Shown: positions 2,544 through 10,195 of the stretch, in pieces | Position numbering within the stretch: the stretch's first letter is position 1 | Layout of the letters: the number at the start of each line of letters is the position of its first letter | DNA from: Pseudomonadota bacterium | GTDB lineage: Bacteria; Pseudomonadota; Alphaproteobacteria; Acetobacterales; Acetobacteraceae | NCBI GenBank assembly: GCA_021805485.1 | Contig: JAJZFF010000156.1 | Location: forward strand, 1 to 10,318 | Reading direction: 5' to 3' | Length of the DNA: 10,318 nucleotides | Notes under the pieces: model-generated | Told to the model about the DNA's origin: nothing | Databases searched by the model: none | What the model saw: only the letters and a program-made list of their open reading frames with translations | Program-made: the position numbers and the translations under genes

Positions 2544-2989
2544 CCTGATCCGATCCGCAGGCCTTGCTCAGTGGAGGATGATTTCCACGCGGCGGTTCTG
2601 CGGCTCGCGAACATTCGGGCCGGTCGGCACCAGAAGGTGCGTCTCGCCATAGCCCTTGATCACGATGTCGTTCTTCGACACGCCATCCGCAACCAGCTGG
2701 GCCGCCACGTTGTGCGCGCGGCGCAGCGACAGCTTCATGTTGTAGGCCGGCGCACCCGAGGTATCGGTATAGCCGTTCACGTTCAGACGCGTCACCTTCG
2801 TGGTCTGCGACGCCTTCGCCGCCTCGGAGACGATCTGCTGCGCCCGCGGCGTCAGGTTCGCCTTGTCCCAGTTGAAGAACACCAGGTAAGTGCGGGCCGG
2901 AGCCGGCGCCGGAGCCGCAACCGGCGTCGGCGCGGGAGCCGCGGCCGGAGCCGGCGGCGCAGGCGGGAACAGCTCGTAGCGCAGGCCGA
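2516..2989 (-). repeat. 474-bp direct repeat, copy 1 (ompA 3' part plus terminator)
   Basis: By direct reading, every base from 2516 to 2989 matches 3858 to 4331 at a constant offset of 1342 with no gaps. It covers the last 139 codons of ompA copy 1 (Pro/Ala linker and OmpA-like domain), the stop codon, the 3' untranslated region and the terminator. Similarity stops abruptly: A against G at 2515/3857 on one side and C against T at 2990/4332 on the other, beyond which the barrel-coding parts differ widely. Confidence 0.95.
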
Positions 2990-3653
2990 CCATCAGCATA
3001 TTGTTGCCTTCGTCGCCCACCTTCATCGTCACCGGTGTAGCCCCGACGGTGGCGCGATAGTTGTCGCTGCCCATGGTGCGCATGTAGCGATATTCGACGG
3101 TGGCGGACAGGCCCGGCGCGGCCGGGATCGGGAAGGCCAGACCGGCGATCGCCTGGTAGGCGAAGGCGCCGGGCGTGCCGTTGAAGCGCGCGCCCGTCAC
3201 GCCGGCGTTGCGCCACTGCAGCCACTGATAGCCGACGCCGGCGCCGACATACGGATAGACATAGGGAACGCCGACATCGAAATCATACAGGGCGTTCGCC
3301 ATGAAGCCGTATTTCTGCTCGGTGCCGGATACCACCGCCTGCGCGCCGTTCCCGTCGACCTTCGCGGCCTGATTGTGGAAATAGTCGCCCTCGAGTTCGA
3401 CGCGGAAGCCGTTGCCGAAGCCGTAGCCGACCGAAGCCTCGCCGGTGAACCCGTTGTGGAAGAGGGTACGCGCCCCCGAGGCAAAATCCCCGTACGGCGT
3501 CGAGATGCTTTTCACCTTGCGGCTGCCCATGATGTTGTAGCCGAGGCCAAGGCTGACATAGGGGCCGGTGACCGGCTGAGCCATCGCCGCCGCCGGAACC
3601 AGGGCGGGAGCCGCGATGATCGTCGCCGCCAGAAGTGTCGTGCGCAATTTCAT
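2568..3653 (-). CDS. OmpA family outer-membrane protein, copy 1
   Basis: A 361-residue outer-membrane protein that anchors the envelope to peptidoglycan. Residues 1-25 are a signal peptide (cleavage after AMA). About 30-228 form an eight-strand-type beta-barrel with alternating aromatic/glycine strands (GPYVSLGLGYN, SVGYGFGNGFRVELEGDYF, YVGAGVGYQW) and a closing GLRYELF strand. Residues 230-253 are a Pro/Ala linker, and 254-361 the OmpA-like domain. In that domain NGYTDTSG supplies D297 and LSLRRA supplies R312, spaced as the diaminopimelate-binding Asp and Arg of E. coli OmpA. The ATG is preceded on the minus strand by a GAGGAG ribosome-binding site (3662-3667) 8 nt away. Its downstream neighbour on the same strand, the second OmpA, shares an identical C-terminal 139 residues but a diverged barrel. 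Terminators flank it on both sides, so it should be transcribed alone. Confidence 0.94.
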   Translation of the reverse strand: MKLRTTLLAATIIAAPALVPAAAMAQPVTGPYVSLGLGYNIMGSRKVKSISTPYGDFASGARTLFHNGFTGEASVGYGFGNGFRVELEGDYFHNQAAKVDGNGAQAVVSGTEQKYGFMANALYDFDVGVPYVYPYVGAGVGYQWLQWRNAGVTGARFNGTPGAFAYQAIAGLAFPIPAAPGLSATVEYRYMRTMGSDNYRATVGATPVTMKVGDEGNNMLMVGLRYELFPPAPPAPAAAPAPTPVAAPAPAPARTYLVFFNWDKANLTPRAQQIVSEAAKASQTTKVTRLNVNGYTDTSGAPAYNMKLSLRRAHNVAAQLVADGVSKNDIVIKGYGETHLLVPTGPNVREPQNRRVEIILH

Positions 3654-3857: not shown

Positions 3858-4331
3858 AAAAACCCCGGCGTTTCCGCCGGGGTTTCCTGATCCGATCCGC
3901 AGGCCTTGCTCAGTGGAGGATGATTTCCACGCGGCGGTTCTGCGGCTCGCGAACATTCGGGCCGGTCGGCACCAGAAGGTGCGTCTCGCCATAGCCCTTG
4001 ATCACGATGTCGTTCTTCGACACGCCATCCGCAACCAGCTGGGCCGCCACGTTGTGCGCGCGGCGCAGCGACAGCTTCATGTTGTAGGCCGGCGCACCCG
4101 AGGTATCGGTATAGCCGTTCACGTTCAGACGCGTCACCTTCGTGGTCTGCGACGCCTTCGCCGCCTCGGAGACGATCTGCTGCGCCCGCGGCGTCAGGTT
4201 CGCCTTGTCCCAGTTGAAGAACACCAGGTAAGTGCGGGCCGGAGCCGGCGCCGGAGCCGCAACCGGCGTCGGCGCGGGAGCCGCGGCCGGAGCCGGCGGC
4301 GCAGGCGGGAACAGCTCGTAGCGCAGGCCGA
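3858..4331 (-). repeat. 474-bp direct repeat, copy 2 (ompA 3' part plus terminator)
   Basis: Second copy of the tract at 2516-2989, identical in my base-by-base comparison, including third codon positions of the low-complexity Pro/Ala linker, the stop codon and the terminator. The boundary in the coding part falls at the codon before GLRYELF, where barrel copy 1 reads MV and copy 2 reads LI. Confidence 0.95.
3860..3885. terminator. Terminator of ompA copy 2
   Basis: Same 11-bp stem and TTTC loop as at 2518-2543 (arms 3860-3870 and 3875-3885). On the minus strand it is followed by five T (complement of 3858-3862), so it should stop ompA copy 2 transcripts before they enter the leader of ompA copy 1. 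It lies 24 nt past the ompA copy 2 stop codon. Confidence 0.82.
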
Positions 4332-5004
4332 TCAGGAACGTGTGATTGCCCGACTGGCCGACATTGATCTGGGTATTCGGCACGGCACCGGTATCATTGT
4401 ATTTCCGATTATGGACCAGCGACATGTACTGGTATTGCGCCGTTACCGCGAGTCCCGGAACCTGCGGCAGGTCATAGGCGACGCCGGCGCTGAGATCATA
4501 GGCCAGGCTGCCATACGTGCCGCCATAAACGTCGCCGGACGGGTCCGCCACGCCGATATGCTGGAACTTCTGCCACTGATACCCGAGGCCCGCGCCGATG
4601 AAGGGCACGAAATTGGTCCCGGTCGGGATGTCGTAATACCCGTTGACCATGAAGCCGTAGGTGTTGACCCCGCCATAGGCGCGGTTCTTGCCCTCGACAT
4701 TGTCGTCGGCCTTCACGGCGTTGTTACGGAAGAAATTGGTGTCGAGCTCGACCCGGAACCCGTTGCCGAGGCCGTAGCCGACGCCGAGCTGCCCGGCATA
4801 ATCGGGGCGAAACAGCAGATTGCCGCCCCGCGCCCCGTTCGGCTGGGCAAAATCGTATTTCTGGTTCTGCATCAGGTTGGTGCCGATGCCGAGATCGACA
4901 TAGGGTCCGGTCACGGGCGGCGGATTCGCGGCCCGCGCCGCCTGCATGCCAAGCGCGAGCGCGGCAGCGCAGCACGCGGTGCAGAGGATCGAGCGATGGG
5001 TCAT
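3910..5004 (-). CDS. OmpA family outer-membrane protein, copy 2
   Basis: A 364-residue paralogue of the protein encoded at 2568-3653. Signal peptide residues 1-25 (MTHRS start, cleavage after ARA) differ entirely from copy 1. The barrel (about 30-231) is recognisably related, sharing PPVTGPYV, VGYGLGNGFRVEL, YGFMVN and FIGAGLGYQW, but much of the sequence between differs, notably in the putative surface loops. From G226 to the C-terminus the protein is identical to copy 1: a Pro/Ala linker, then the peptidoglycan-binding domain with D300 and R315 in the diaminopimelate-binding positions. The ATG follows GGAGG (complement of 5009-5013) by 4 nt. It has its own terminator and lies 150 nt from the DUF2155 gene upstream. 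Two paralogues may give alternative surface exposure; their relative expression cannot be read from sequence. Confidence 0.94.
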   Translation of the reverse strand: MTHRSILCTACCAAALALGMQAARAANPPPVTGPYVDLGIGTNLMQNQKYDFAQPNGARGGNLLFRPDYAGQLGVGYGLGNGFRVELDTNFFRNNAVKADDNVEGKNRAYGGVNTYGFMVNGYYDIPTGTNFVPFIGAGLGYQWQKFQHIGVADPSGDVYGGTYGSLAYDLSAGVAYDLPQVPGLAVTAQYQYMSLVHNRKYNDTGAVPNTQINVGQSGNHTFLIGLRYELFPPAPPAPAAAPAPTPVAAPAPAPARTYLVFFNWDKANLTPRAQQIVSEAAKASQTTKVTRLNVNGYTDTSGAPAYNMKLSLRRAHNVAAQLVADGVSKNDIVIKGYGETHLLVPTGPNVREPQNRRVEIILH

Positions 5005-5154: not shown

Positions 5155-5736
5155 TCAGCCAGCGGAACAACCGATGAGGCGGAATGTCACCGCAGCGTCA
5201 CCCACCACGGTGGCGCCGGGCTCGGAGCGGATCAGCCAGCCGCGGAACAGGTCGGGGGCAGCCATGCCGTGCCGCACTGTCATGTATACCGCAGCGTCCG
5301 GCGGCATGTCGGCCGGGCGGACGACACAGGCGCCGATCGTCACCCGCAGCGCGCCTTCGGTGAAACTCGACCCGACGGGCGCGATGATCCGGTTCACCGC
5401 GCCATCGGCCTTCTCGAGCACATCGAGAATCGCGGCCTGGCGCGGATCCCAGATCGGCTTGACCTGTTTCGGCGGCGCAGGCGGCGTCGCCTGCGACCCT
5501 TTCGGGGTTGGGGGTCCTGCAAAGGCACCGCCCTGGTCACCCGGCAAGGTGGGCGCGTTCGGCAGGTCCGGCGCCGGCAGCGCGCCATCCGGCATGGCTG
5601 GGCTCGGCGCCGAGGCGACGGGCGGAGCCTCCGGCACTGTCACCACCGATTGACCGGACTGCGCAAGTCCGCGGCCCGGCAGCGCCGCGAACATCGCGAC
5701 CACCAGAACGACGGCGCCGGCGCGACGGAGGCTCAT
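5155..5736 (-). CDS. DUF2155 domain-containing exported protein
   Basis: A 193-residue exported protein with an N-terminal signal sequence (hydrophobic residues 8-20, cleavage probably after GLA at 25). A long low-complexity Pro/Ala/Gly region (about 34-91) follows, then a globular domain (about 94-193) matching DUF2155: WDPRQAAILDVLEKADGAVNRIIAPVG-type opening, LRVTIGACVVRPADMPPDAA, FRGWLIRSEPG and a terminal FRLIGCSAG. C137 and C190 are the two domain cysteines and probably pair in the periplasm. The function of DUF2155 is not known. Its ATG overlaps the mlaD stop codon in an ATGA arrangement (5733-5736), so translation is probably coupled to mlaD, implying matched amounts. I recall DUF2155 genes beside NDUFA12 and mlaD in other Alphaproteobacteria, which supports the call. 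Confidence 0.85.
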   Translation of the reverse strand: MSLRRAGAVVLVVAMFAALPGRGLAQSGQSVVTVPEAPPVASAPSPAMPDGALPAPDLPNAPTLPGDQGGAFAGPPTPKGSQATPPAPPKQVKPIWDPRQAAILDVLEKADGAVNRIIAPVGSSFTEGALRVTIGACVVRPADMPPDAAVYMTVRHGMAAPDLFRGWLIRSEPGATVVGDAAVTFRLIGCSAG

Positions 5737-6233
5737 TTCGGGGCCGGTACCGAAGTGCCGCCGCCGTTTGCCTTCGCTGTCGAGGTCGCCAGGTTTGCGG
5801 CGCTGAAGACGAACTTGCCGAGCAGCGATTCGATGTTGATGGCCGACTGCGTTGCGGTGATTGCCTGGCCGGGCTTCAACATGGTTTCGGAACCGCCGGG
5901 CGAAATCGAAAGATAATCGCTGCCCAGCAGCGACGCGCTCTCGATCGCCGCGCTGCTATCCTTCGGAATCTTGACGTCCGGCTGGATGCGGAACTGTACG
6001 ATCGCGGCATAGGTCTGCGGGTCGAGCGAGGTGCGGGTCACCTCGCCGATCGTGACGCCGGCGATCTTGACCGGAGAGCCGACGGTGAGCGGACCGATGC
6101 TGCCGAAACTCGCGCGCAAGTCATATCCCGTGCCGCCTACGGTGCGCGTTCGCGACGCCGCATAGGCGAGAAAGACGGCGGCCGCGACGATCACGACCAG
6201 GCCCGCGATGATTTCCGATACCCGATTCTTCAT
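5733..6233 (-). CDS. mlaD: MlaD, MCE-domain phospholipid-transport protein
   Basis: MlaD is the substrate-binding MCE subunit of the Mla system, forming a hexameric ring in the inner membrane that passes phospholipids between the membranes to keep outer-membrane lipid asymmetry. The 166-residue protein has one N-terminal membrane helix (about 8-26, IIAGLVVIVAAAVFLAYAA) and an MCE domain (about 36-115) with the usual YDLRASFGSIGPLTVGSPV core, VKIAGVTIGEV and LLGSDYLSISPGG. The tail continues to a hydrophobic helical stretch (IESLLGKFVFSAANLA), the region that plugs the hexamer pore. Length fits MlaD (150-185) rather than larger multi-MCE proteins. Start ATG 6231-6233 is preceded by AAGGG on the minus strand. 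It follows the NDUFA12 gene by 37 nt and overlaps DUF2155. The ATPase, permease and MlaC genes are not here and must be elsewhere. Confidence 0.94.
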   Translation of the reverse strand: MKNRVSEIIAGLVVIVAAAVFLAYAASRTRTVGGTGYDLRASFGSIGPLTVGSPVKIAGVTIGEVTRTSLDPQTYAAIVQFRIQPDVKIPKDSSAAIESASLLGSDYLSISPGGSETMLKPGQAITATQSAINIESLLGKFVFSAANLATSTAKANGGGTSVPAPK

Positions 6234-6270: not shown

Positions 6271-6708
6271 TCAGCCTTCCGGCGTCCAGGATTCGTAATC
6301 GCCCGTGGCCATCCCCCGCGTGCCGCCGCGATAATCGTGGCCGCGCGGCCGGTAGGAACCAGGCGTTCCCGTCAGATTCGGCTGGTGCGGCTTCTGCCAG
6401 GGGCGGCGCGAAGCCTCGGAGAGCGGGGCGTCGGTCGTGAAATGCAGCCAGGAATGCCATTCGGGCGGCACTAGCGAGGCTTCCCGCGCGCCGCCGGCAT
6501 AGATCACCCAGCGGCGCTTGCGGCCGTCGGGCCTGCTGGCCCTGCGTTCCTCGAAATAGCGATTGCCGAAACTGTCCTGCCCTACCATCAGGCCGTGGCG
6601 AAGCGTGTGCAACGTCAGCCCGGGATTGGCGATCAGCCGGCGCAGACCGCCGAGCGAAGCCAGCGTCGGAACCGTTGACGCATCTGCCGTATCACGGTGT
6701 TCGTTCAT
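6271..6708 (-). CDS. NDUFA12-family complex I accessory subunit
   Basis: A 145-residue homologue of NDUFA12 (B17.2), a supernumerary subunit of respiratory complex I that packs on the peripheral arm of NADH:ubiquinone oxidoreductase. The family signature is nearly complete: GLMVGQDSFGNRYFE (39-53), RRWVIYAGGAREASLVPPEWHSWLH in the middle (65-89, core VPPEWHSWLH), WQKPHQPNLTGT (104-115) and ATGDYESWTPEG at the end. I chose the ATG at 6706-6708, not the in-frame start at 6813, because the extra 35 residues have no family similarity and run through the shared regulatory region; the shorter form has the usual length. The ribosome-binding site is weak (AGGCGG) and the message may be leaderless. 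It leads an operon with mlaD and the DUF2155 gene, a pairing with no obvious functional logic that I recall as conserved. Confidence 0.93.
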   Translation of the reverse strand: MNEHRDTADASTVPTLASLGGLRRLIANPGLTLHTLRHGLMVGQDSFGNRYFEERRASRPDGRKRRWVIYAGGAREASLVPPEWHSWLHFTTDAPLSEASRRPWQKPHQPNLTGTPGSYRPRGHDYRGGTRGMATGDYESWTPEG

Positions 6709-6715
6709 GCCGCCT

Positions 6716-6744
6716 GCTATACAGGAGACGGTCGGATCGGTCCA
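6716..6744 (-). promoter_or_regulatory. Candidate promoter of the NDUFA12-mlaD-DUF2155 operon
   Basis: On the minus strand TGGACC (complement of 6739-6744) and TATAGC (complement of 6716-6721) are separated by exactly 17 bp, four of six matches to each consensus. The predicted start near 6709 is next to the ATG at 6708, which would make the mRNA leaderless or almost so, in keeping with the poor ribosome-binding site. Confidence 0.4.
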
Positions 6745-6754
6745 TCCGCGCGCC

Positions 6755-6766
6755 GGCACATGTGCC
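6755..6766. promoter_or_regulatory. 12-bp perfect palindrome in the divergent promoter region
   Basis: GGCACATGTGCC is a perfect 12-bp palindrome located between the two divergent transcription units, 11 bp upstream of the NDUFA12 candidate -35 box. Symmetry and position fit a dimeric repressor or activator site. I do not recognise the cognate regulator. Confidence 0.35.
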
Positions 6767-6773
6767 CCCCGGC

Positions 6774-6814
6774 TTATCCACAAGATTTTGTGGCCGTGAC
6801 CTGAATTTTCCACA
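6774..6814 (+). promoter_or_regulatory. Two DnaA-box-like sites upstream of the NrdJ-like gene
   Basis: TTATCCACA at 6774-6782 equals the strong E. coli DnaA box, and TTTTCCACA at 6806-6814 fits the looser TTWTNCACA pattern. Both have the same orientation, and their starts are 32 bp apart, about three helical turns. The shared core is a 10-bp repeat, TCCACAAGAT (6777-6786 and 6809-6818). The first site also forms an inverted repeat, CCACAA-GATT-TTGTGG (6778-6793). They lie 55-95 bp upstream of the NrdJ-like start codon and could affect either divergent unit. Confidence 0.5.
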
Positions 6815-6868: not shown

Positions 6869-8395
6869 ATGAGGAAGGATCCCGCCAGCAGGCATCGCCC
6901 GACACCGCACCGCGCGTGGCGCGGCATCCGGCTCAAACGGGTCGAGATCGGGATCGATCCCGATGCCGCACCCGAACCCGCCATCATTCCTGCCGACTGG
7001 AGCGATCAGGCCGCCGCCGGGCTGGTGGCGCTACGCGCCGATCGCTCGATGATCGGGGTCGACCAGGCGGCCGATGCCTGGATCGCGCCGCTTGCCGCCG
7101 CCGCGGAGCGTCTGGGTCGCGGCGAGGATGTCGCGTCCACGCTGCACCGGCTGGTCGCAACGCGCCGCGCCGCGCCGAGCCCTGGCATCTGGCAGGGCCG
7201 TGCCGAGCCGGTGCCTGGCTTCGTCTTCAACCTGCCGCAGTTCCTCGACGAGAGCGGCATGTTCGACGCTGCCGCGTTCGGCGGGGCGGTCGAACACGCG
7301 GTGCTCGCCCTCTCGCTGGCACAACCTTCGGCCCAGCGCCTCGCACTCGGCATGGCCGACCTCGCCCTGCTGCTGGCGCGCCTCGATATCGATTACGCGA
7401 GCCCCACGGCGCGCGACGTGGCCGCGACGATCGGCGCGCTGCTCGCCGCCCATGCGGATATCGCCTCGGCCGGGCTGCTGGCGCGGGGCATCGCGCCGGG
7501 ATGCGCCATCACGCCGGTTCCGGTTCCCGCCAGTTGCGCCCAGCCCAGCCTGCGCGCCGCCTTGCTCGACGCGCGCGAGCGGGCCCTGGCGTGCGGCCTG
7601 CGCCAGCATCGCAGCCTGACCGGGCTGCTGCCGCCGGGGCCGGTGGAGATGCTGCTCGACGTCGAGACGGTTGGGATCGCAGCACCGCTCTCGGCGCTGG
7701 ACTCCGAGGGCGGGCTCGCCCGCTGGGCGCGGGCGCGGCTTGCCGCCTCCGGCCGTACGGCCGAGTCGGCGCTGGCCGCGAGCCTGGCCGGCGCCGATCC
7801 GTTCGGCGTGACCGATGCCGCCGGCATCGCCGCAATGCGCGAGGCCATCGCACCGGTCTGCGCCATCCTGCCCGAGGTGCCGTCCCTCCCCGCGCCGCGC
7901 GCGGCCTCCGCCGGGCGCGGCAAGCTGCCGGCGCGCCGCGGCGGCTACACCCAGAAGGTTTCGGTGGGCGGGCACCGGCTATTCCTGCGCACCGGTGAAT
8001 ATCCGGACGGGCGGCTGGGCGAGATCATGATCTCGCTACCGAAGGACTCCGCAACGCTGCGCGGCATGGCCGAGGCGTTCGCCGGCGCGGTCAGCATCGG
8101 GTTGCAGCATGGCGTGCCTCTGGATGAATTCGTCGATGAATTTGCCTTCACCCGCTTCGCGCCCGCCGGCGCGGTGGAAGGCGACGCAATGATCAGCCAG
8201 GCGACCTCGCTCCTCGACTATGTGTTCCGGCACCTGGCCGCGACCTATTCGCAGCGGCCCGATCTCGCGGCGCTCGACCTTGCCGACGATGCGGCTGGTG
8301 TCGATGCCACCGCTCCGCTGCTGCCGCTGGACCTGCCGGAGACCGGAACCGGCCGGCCGAAGCGCCAGCGTCCCGTCCTGAAACTCGTGAGCTGA
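6869..8395 (+). CDS. NrdJ-derived protein lacking the catalytic core (class II RNR pseudoenzyme)
   Basis: A 508-residue protein made of segments of adenosylcobalamin-dependent ribonucleotide reductase (NrdJ). Residues about 17-50 recall the NrdJ N-terminus (PADWSDQAA against PADWSQVA), and RRAAPSPGIW (99-108) recalls AAPNSPQW. The sequence then jumps to NLPQFLDESGMFDAAAF (121-137), matching the segment after the SACNLAS motif; the stretch between, with active-site cysteines and the NPC loop, is absent. LPPGPVEMLLDVETVGI (254-270) aligns gap-free with APTGTIGLVMDCDTTGI but has lost the phosphate-loop Thr residues and the Cys. Residues 359-467 (GYTQKVSVGGHRLFLRTGEY, DGRLGEI, GLQHGVPLDEFVD, FTRFAPAG) are close to NrdJ. 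Reductase activity is therefore improbable; role unknown. The open frame is intact with normal codon bias, so it is not a decaying pseudogene. ATG 6869 has a poorly spaced GAGGG. The RidA-family gene starts 3 nt after its stop. Confidence 0.8.
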   Translation: MRKDPASRHRPTPHRAWRGIRLKRVEIGIDPDAAPEPAIIPADWSDQAAAGLVALRADRSMIGVDQAADAWIAPLAAAAERLGRGEDVASTLHRLVATRRAAPSPGIWQGRAEPVPGFVFNLPQFLDESGMFDAAAFGGAVEHAVLALSLAQPSAQRLALGMADLALLLARLDIDYASPTARDVAATIGALLAAHADIASAGLLARGIAPGCAITPVPVPASCAQPSLRAALLDARERALACGLRQHRSLTGLLPPGPVEMLLDVETVGIAAPLSALDSEGGLARWARARLAASGRTAESALAASLAGADPFGVTDAAGIAAMREAIAPVCAILPEVPSLPAPRAASAGRGKLPARRGGYTQKVSVGGHRLFLRTGEYPDGRLGEIMISLPKDSATLRGMAEAFAGAVSIGLQHGVPLDEFVDEFAFTRFAPAGAVEGDAMISQATSLLDYVFRHLAATYSQRPDLAALDLADDAAGVDATAPLLPLDLPETGTGRPKRQRPVLKLVS

Positions 8396-8398
8396 TCC

Positions 8399-8860
8399 AT
8401 GGATATACGCGCGCGCCTCGCCGAGAACGGCATAACCCTTCCGCCCGCGGCGAAGGCCGTGGCGAATTACGTGCCGGTGGTGGTCGCCGGTGGAATGGCG
8501 ATCGTCAGCGGGCAGTTGCCGCTCGCGGGCGGCAAGCTCGCGGTGACGGGAAAGCTCGGCGACGGAGTGACGGTCGAGGACGGGACTGCGGCAGCGCGGG
8601 CCTGTTTTATCAACGTGCTCGCGCAGATCGAGGCGCATGTCGAGGGCGGACTCGATGCCGTTGCCCAGGTGGTGCGGCTCGGCGGGTTCATTGCGGCGAC
8701 GGCGGATTTCGCCGAGCACGCGAAAGTGATGAACGGGGCATCGGACCTCGCGGTGGCGATTTTCGGCGAGGCGGGGCGGCATGCGCGCTCGACCGTGGGC
8801 GTCGCCTCGCTGCCGCTCAACGCGGCGGTCGAGGTCGAGGGGATGTTTTTGCTCCGCTGA
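8399..8860 (+). CDS. RidA family (YjgF/YER057c/UK114) protein
   Basis: A 153-residue RidA-superfamily protein. RidA proteins are trimers that hydrolyse reactive enamine/imine intermediates such as 2-aminoacrylate formed by PLP enzymes, preventing damage to other PLP enzymes; many paralogues have other or unknown roles. Visible marks are ANYVPVVVAGGMAIVSGQLP (residues 22-41), VVRLGGFIAATADFAEH, VMNGASDLAVAIFGEAGRHARSTVGVASLP with the substrate-anchoring Arg (GRHARST region), and the terminal VEVEGMFLL. Length and the GASDL/GRHARS style match the longer YjgF_like_1-type subgroup, not the ~128-residue archetypal RidA. The start ATG is 3 nt after the upstream TGA with no clear Shine-Dalgarno, suggesting translational coupling to the NrdJ-like gene. 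Enolase follows 57 nt downstream. The subfamily assignment is from memory, and enamine deaminase activity is inferred. Confidence 0.9.
   Translation: MDIRARLAENGITLPPAAKAVANYVPVVVAGGMAIVSGQLPLAGGKLAVTGKLGDGVTVEDGTAAARACFINVLAQIEAHVEGGLDAVAQVVRLGGFIAATADFAEHAKVMNGASDLAVAIFGEAGRHARSTVGVASLPLNAAVEVEGMFLLR

Positions 8861-10195
<1,335 letters not shown>

Follow-up and report, generated by a model that had tools for sequence, protein, structure and literature searches.

The window analyzed here, a stretch of 10,318 nucleotides from a member of the Acetobacteraceae (contig JAJZFF010000156.1), contains an uninterrupted 508-residue frame at positions 6869-8395 of the forward strand. The first-pass annotation had read this gene as intact and its product as collinear with the class II ribonucleotide reductase NrdJ at about half the length, with the active-site region skipped and the C-terminal region well kept. 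Each of these points was borne out by profile alignment, structure and conservation. The product, an NrdJ-derived pseudoenzyme, consists of the following parts.

6869..8395, + strand: NrdJ-derived pseudoenzyme, 508 residues (open frame, profile matches, structure)
6869..7201, + strand: N-terminal cap formed by residues 1-111, which run collinear with NrdJ 1-174 (structure; weak sequence matches)
7202..7225, + strand: residues 112-119, the site at which NrdJ model positions 175-506 (the half-barrel with the active site) are missing (profile alignment)
7226..7903, + strand: residues 120-345, what is left of the barrel's second half (structure and sequence; 26% identity to one intact NrdJ)
7904..8293, + strand: residues 346-475, TSCPD/IscU-like domain, the most conserved part of the protein
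8294..8392, + strand: residues 476-508, predicted disordered tail, in which an LPLDLP motif at about 8321-8338 replaces the redox finger

Fold and collinear order of parts are shared with NrdJ. Compared with the alphaproteobacterial enzyme (PRK07562 / NF005736; 7b9p, 7b9q), the window protein is alike in part order, in the fold of the kept parts, in the TSCPD/IscU-like domain and in chromosomal slot, but it has neither the barrel half that carries the active site nor the redox finger and measures 508 instead of about 1,220 residues. Its score of 182 bits against the NCBIfam class II model NF005736 falls far below the cut-off of 1737. The TSCPD domain (PF12637) was matched at residues 360-458 with 33.6 bits (Pfam gathering score 22.8) and was detected in all 36 members of alignment A2 (E <= 1); the domain is thereby shared with Pfam TSCPD proteins above the curated cut-off and is here fused to a reductase remnant.

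The missing block, NrdJ model positions 175-506, takes with it all five catalytic residues. Nothing in the window protein aligned to the active-site thiyl cysteine with its asparagine and glutamate (NPCSE in intact NrdJ), and both the active-site redox cysteine pair and the C-terminal redox cysteines are absent. A homologue search yielded 1,029 proteins at E 1e-3, of which 120 were listed and 45 of these aligned (A1); no cysteine column in the 45 homologues is conserved in more than 27. As no cysteine is conserved, the sequence data strongly support a protein that would be incapable of reductase chemistry. The mean majority-residue frequency is 0.63 in the barrel remnant versus 0.82 in the TSCPD domain. 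The tail motif LPLDLP (residues 485-490), followed by a basic RxRR stretch, recurs in 118 of the 120 listed homologues and was not found in the tails of other stripped NrdJs; it is possibly a docking motif.

Chromosomal slot shared with intact NrdJ

The following genes adjoin the pseudoenzyme gene.

8399..8860, + strand: RidA/YjgF-family gene in the same operon, starting 3 bases 3' of the pseudoenzyme gene
8918..10195, + strand: enolase, the next gene after RidA
6271..6813, - strand: NDUFA12-like gene, divergent neighbor, its true start probably within the frame
5733..6233, - strand: MlaD-like gene, conserved neighbor
5155..5736, - strand: DUF2155 gene, conserved neighbor

At 20 loci of the order, each in a different genome (tblastn, E <= 1e-5), MlaD was present nearby at all 20, DUF2155 at 19, RidA at 18 and NDUFA12 at 17. 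Intact NrdJ genes of other families occupy the same arrangement, with NDUFA12 at 12 and RidA at 4 of 30 loci (flanks of about 1.5 kb). Because the slot is shared, the stripped protein and intact NrdJ are positional orthologues. Among stripped loci elsewhere in the class, NDUFA12 or RidA adjoins the gene at 12 of 20 within short flanks and neither does at the other eight, those of families f52 and f126 included; six further stripped loci were viewed more widely, and NDUFA12 stood beside all six. Judged by sequence comparison, the gene is a direct descendant of alphaproteobacterial NrdJ that still occupies its original chromosomal place.

Stripped NrdJ across Alphaproteobacteria

NrdJ scoring above the family cut-off was detected in 239 of 389 alphaproteobacterial genomes. 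The sample below the cut-off comprised 38 proteins, 12 from f1 (the family to which the window belongs) and 26 from 13 other family codes (f8, f32, f52, f83, f84, f88, f98, f103, f126, f131, f139, f146 and f151) and a Brevundimonas that may fall within one of them. As the class surveys draw on the matches listed, the number of stripped lineages is a lower bound. The thiyl cysteine was found in none of the 38 stripped proteins: seven carry another residue at this position and 31 have nothing aligned.

The extent of the loss is graded. A gap in model coverage opens after about position 175-200 and spans 75-85 positions in f32, f146 and one f88 protein, reaching 240-370 positions in f131, f139, f98, f103 and f151. 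Lengths run from 1190 residues in f32 (thiyl cysteine replaced by Asp) and 1085 in f146 (Gln) through 808 in f139 and about 500-590 in Acetobacteraceae to 272-293 in f8 and f83, where little besides the TSCPD domain remains and no barrel is left. In three f83 genomes of about 1.2 Mb (G232, G322 and G497; loci L083, L175 and L176), a protein of 272-281 residues, almost the TSCPD domain alone, lies beside NDUFA12. One f88 contig (G390:C1) carries stripped NrdJ in two distant frames, L166 and 3615270-3616661 (NrdJ 2-188 plus 432-562, and 544-916), as if split into two genes.

A tree of rpoB from 30 selected genomes (16 stripped, 14 intact; the G453 rpoB is partial at 677 residues, and f8 and f83 form long branches) places the stripped state in seven separate clades, with seven changes by Fitch count. 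Stripped f103 stands beside intact f9 (support 94) and stripped f32 beside intact f14 (support 93); collapsing nodes under 95 lowers the bound from seven losses to three. A single stripped clade was rejected (approximately unbiased test, p 9e-36).

A C-terminal finger survives in nine stripped proteins (three from f52, two each from f126 and f8, one from f131 and one from Brevundimonas). All nine have kept the two CxxC pairs and lost both further cysteines, which in 30 of 30 intact NrdJs bring the count to six, one extra cysteine standing between the pairs and the other behind them. For the finger of Stackebrandtia NrdJ, the sections of PMC5704485 that treat it propose four of the six cysteines as zinc ligands and the other two as a redox shuttle; the same sections report that C939A, a mutant in a predicted ligand, still held zinc. 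Several families have thus retained structure (zinc) and given up chemistry (redox).

These data also bear on the idea that the barrel remnant acquired a different catalytic activity. A half-barrel with invariant residues, among them Asp164, Tyr176 and His247, does persist in Acetobacteraceae, but conservation of the remnant falls short of that of the TSCPD domain, the barrel is gone from f8 and f83, and a conserved cysteine is absent, which makes a new enzyme improbable.

The stripped protein is nearly universal in the order of the window. The nearest genome, G001 (93% of sampled words shared, 99% complete), has a copy that is 99% identical, and the family profile matches 144 of 150 genomes in 39 of 41 genera; a copy in G117, added later from the same slot, brings the count to 145. 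Public names of the homologues, among the matches listed, are 'TSCPD domain-containing protein', 'hypothetical protein' and 'ribonucleoside-diphosphate reductase alpha chain', and the last of these, given by one source to some stripped proteins, calls for caution in annotation. A diverged variant occurs in four genomes (G014, G102, G117 and G145). The TSCPD domain was not seen in its three complete copies, L136, L137 and L138 (G117, G102 and G145; two genera), which lie in the same slot and keep the reductase barrel remnant; the G014 copy stops at a contig end. Five genomes gave no family match (G004 plus G020, G066, G074 and G113, genus g15), and the surroundings of RidA or NDUFA12 in three of them (G004, G020 and G066) yielded no copy either. 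In G022 the gene is broken into three frames.

Selection was gauged by the ratio of non-synonymous to synonymous substitution rates (dN/dS, NG86). The whole gene gave 0.215 against L001, 0.28-0.32 against L002-L004 and 0.17-0.21 among L002-L004; for the same near pairs, residues 346-475 gave 0.05-0.17 and the neighboring genes 0.03-0.22 (RidA), 0.14-0.33 (NDUFA12), 0.08-0.22 (MlaD) and 0.03-0.13 (enolase). Only five changes (two silent, three not) separate the gene from the G001 copy, for which dN/dS is 0.58, and more distant pairs (L023, L120, L122 and L123) range from 0.26 to 0.52. As measured by these ratios, purifying selection retains the cap and what is left of the barrel, and acts most strongly on the TSCPD/IscU-like domain. 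The earlier expectation that the gene is probably maintained agrees with its presence in 144 of 150 genomes and with the ratios of 0.17-0.32 in near pairs.

A functionless gene decaying toward loss is very improbable. Lineages have shed different parts, graded from 1190 to about 270 residues, and the gene is missing from five of 150 genomes and fragmented in G022, as decay would have it. Against this, frames are open in most genomes of the order under strong constraint, zinc ligands are retained while redox cysteines disappear, and the breaks in G022 are likely a sequencing fault, since the adjoining RidA gene is split as well.

Other reductases and a possible function of the remnant

The first-pass annotation had asked whether full-length NrdJ or NrdAB is encoded in the same genome, and G001 has both. 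A complete short-type NrdJ of 764 residues, with active-site motifs and its own six-cysteine finger, lies about 13 kb from the stripped gene, and class I NrdA and NrdB are also encoded; no split core is therefore needed in G001. Of the 150 genomes sampled in the order, 9 gave a short-type NrdJ (E <= 1e-50), compared with 144 for the stripped protein. In G088, which also has the stripped protein, a short-type NrdJ match at G088:C4:90041-91747 contains one internal TGA. A class I NrdA-type frame was found in 32 of 34 checked genomes with stripped NrdJ, a count that covers such genomes and rests mostly on match position and frame length (the G001 NrdA was scanned); of the remaining two, G325 shows short-type NrdJ only and G334 neither (E <= 1e-9). 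Because another reductase is present, the loss of catalysis is affordable.

The least probable explanation, at a very small chance, is a split class II enzyme in which the protein, as one subunit, completes a core from another gene, as NrdJb of Pseudomonas aeruginosa does: a short NrdJ lies 13 kb off in G001, but it is complete, such genes are far rarer in the order than the stripped protein (the survey of all 150 genomes covered the short core type), and the redox finger supplied by NrdJb is missing from the window protein. The case that the first-pass annotation had named against itself, a missing core encoded nearby, is hence unlikely. Its suggestion of a partner or regulator of a true NrdJ is also unlikely as a general answer, given 9 genomes with short NrdJ against 144 with the stripped protein.

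We favor, at a probability of roughly 80%, an NrdJ descendant that was stripped of catalysis in place and most likely works as a binding module. In this sequence of events, another reductase, usually class I NrdAB, came to provide deoxynucleotides, whereupon NrdJ lost the catalytic half of its barrel together with its C-terminal redox cysteines; purifying selection preserved the N-terminal cap, what remained of the barrel and, most strongly, the TSCPD/IscU-like domain. The likeliest role for the remnant would be that of a folded module that binds another protein, either to hold it or to regulate it, by way of the assembly surfaces of NrdJ. In Stackebrandtia NrdJ, according to passages of PMC5704485, higher oligomers involve the cysteine-rich domain at the C-terminus of class II enzymes, a domain that includes the kept region, and dimerization of the IscU-like domain is proposed to explain oligomers in a portion of PMC9669993. 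A scaffold or regulator acting through an oligomer-forming surface would be the simplest reading.

The first candidate for the partner would be class I NrdA/NrdB because it is nearly always present, and the remnant would then be a regulator of deoxynucleotide supply; this specific guess is given well under even odds. Co-occurrence with NrdA/NrdB is expected anyway, since class I makes NrdJ dispensable. RidA and NDUFA12 (the latter a complex I factor), equally old neighbors, could be partners or merely inherited company. One point weighs against a single function common to all lineages: the pieces kept differ from one to the next, with TSCPD traces or none in f88, f98, f103, f151 and genera g12 and g40, and no barrel in f8 and f83. 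The Acetobacteraceae protein may have a function of its own.

A wider proposal, which we hold tentatively and at somewhat less than even odds, is that alphaproteobacterial NrdJ is a two-job protein whose second half and TSCPD/IscU-like domain have an ancient non-catalytic function; selection would therefore keep stripped versions, in at least seven lineages, once other reductases take over the chemistry. The 2022 survey PMC9669993, in the part that concerns the domain, gives its role in reductases as unreported.

Another close likeness to the window protein among known systems is NrdJb, likewise a polypeptide with an IscU-like domain separate from the catalytic core, as described in part of PMC9669993. 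NrdJb retains the redox finger and partners with NrdJa (according to a section of PMC4520616), whereas the window protein has no finger and a barrel remnant attached. An NrdJa-type core was not found in most genomes with the stripped protein, with the search for core types limited as stated above. Betaherpesviruses encode dead homologues of the class I large subunit R1, in which the reductase fold is used in protein binding and not in catalysis; these differ in being viral, class I-derived, near full length and unrelated in descent to the cellular class II case. No cellular pseudoenzyme derived from a ribonucleotide reductase was found among the matches listed from open-licence PubMed Central, and such a protein in bacterial cells, family-wide and repeatedly evolved, is new to us. 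Few enzymes are as old as ribonucleotide reductase. Its recurrent in-place stripping, which spares zinc sites but not redox sites, amounts to a natural experiment that parts structure from chemistry. The pattern points to a second function for the TSCPD/IscU-like domain that is testable in cultivable bacteria.

Elsewhere in the window, two tandem OmpA-like outer-membrane genes (2568-3653 and 3910-5004, both on the reverse strand) are identical by translation in their C-terminal part, as if recently duplicated or converted.
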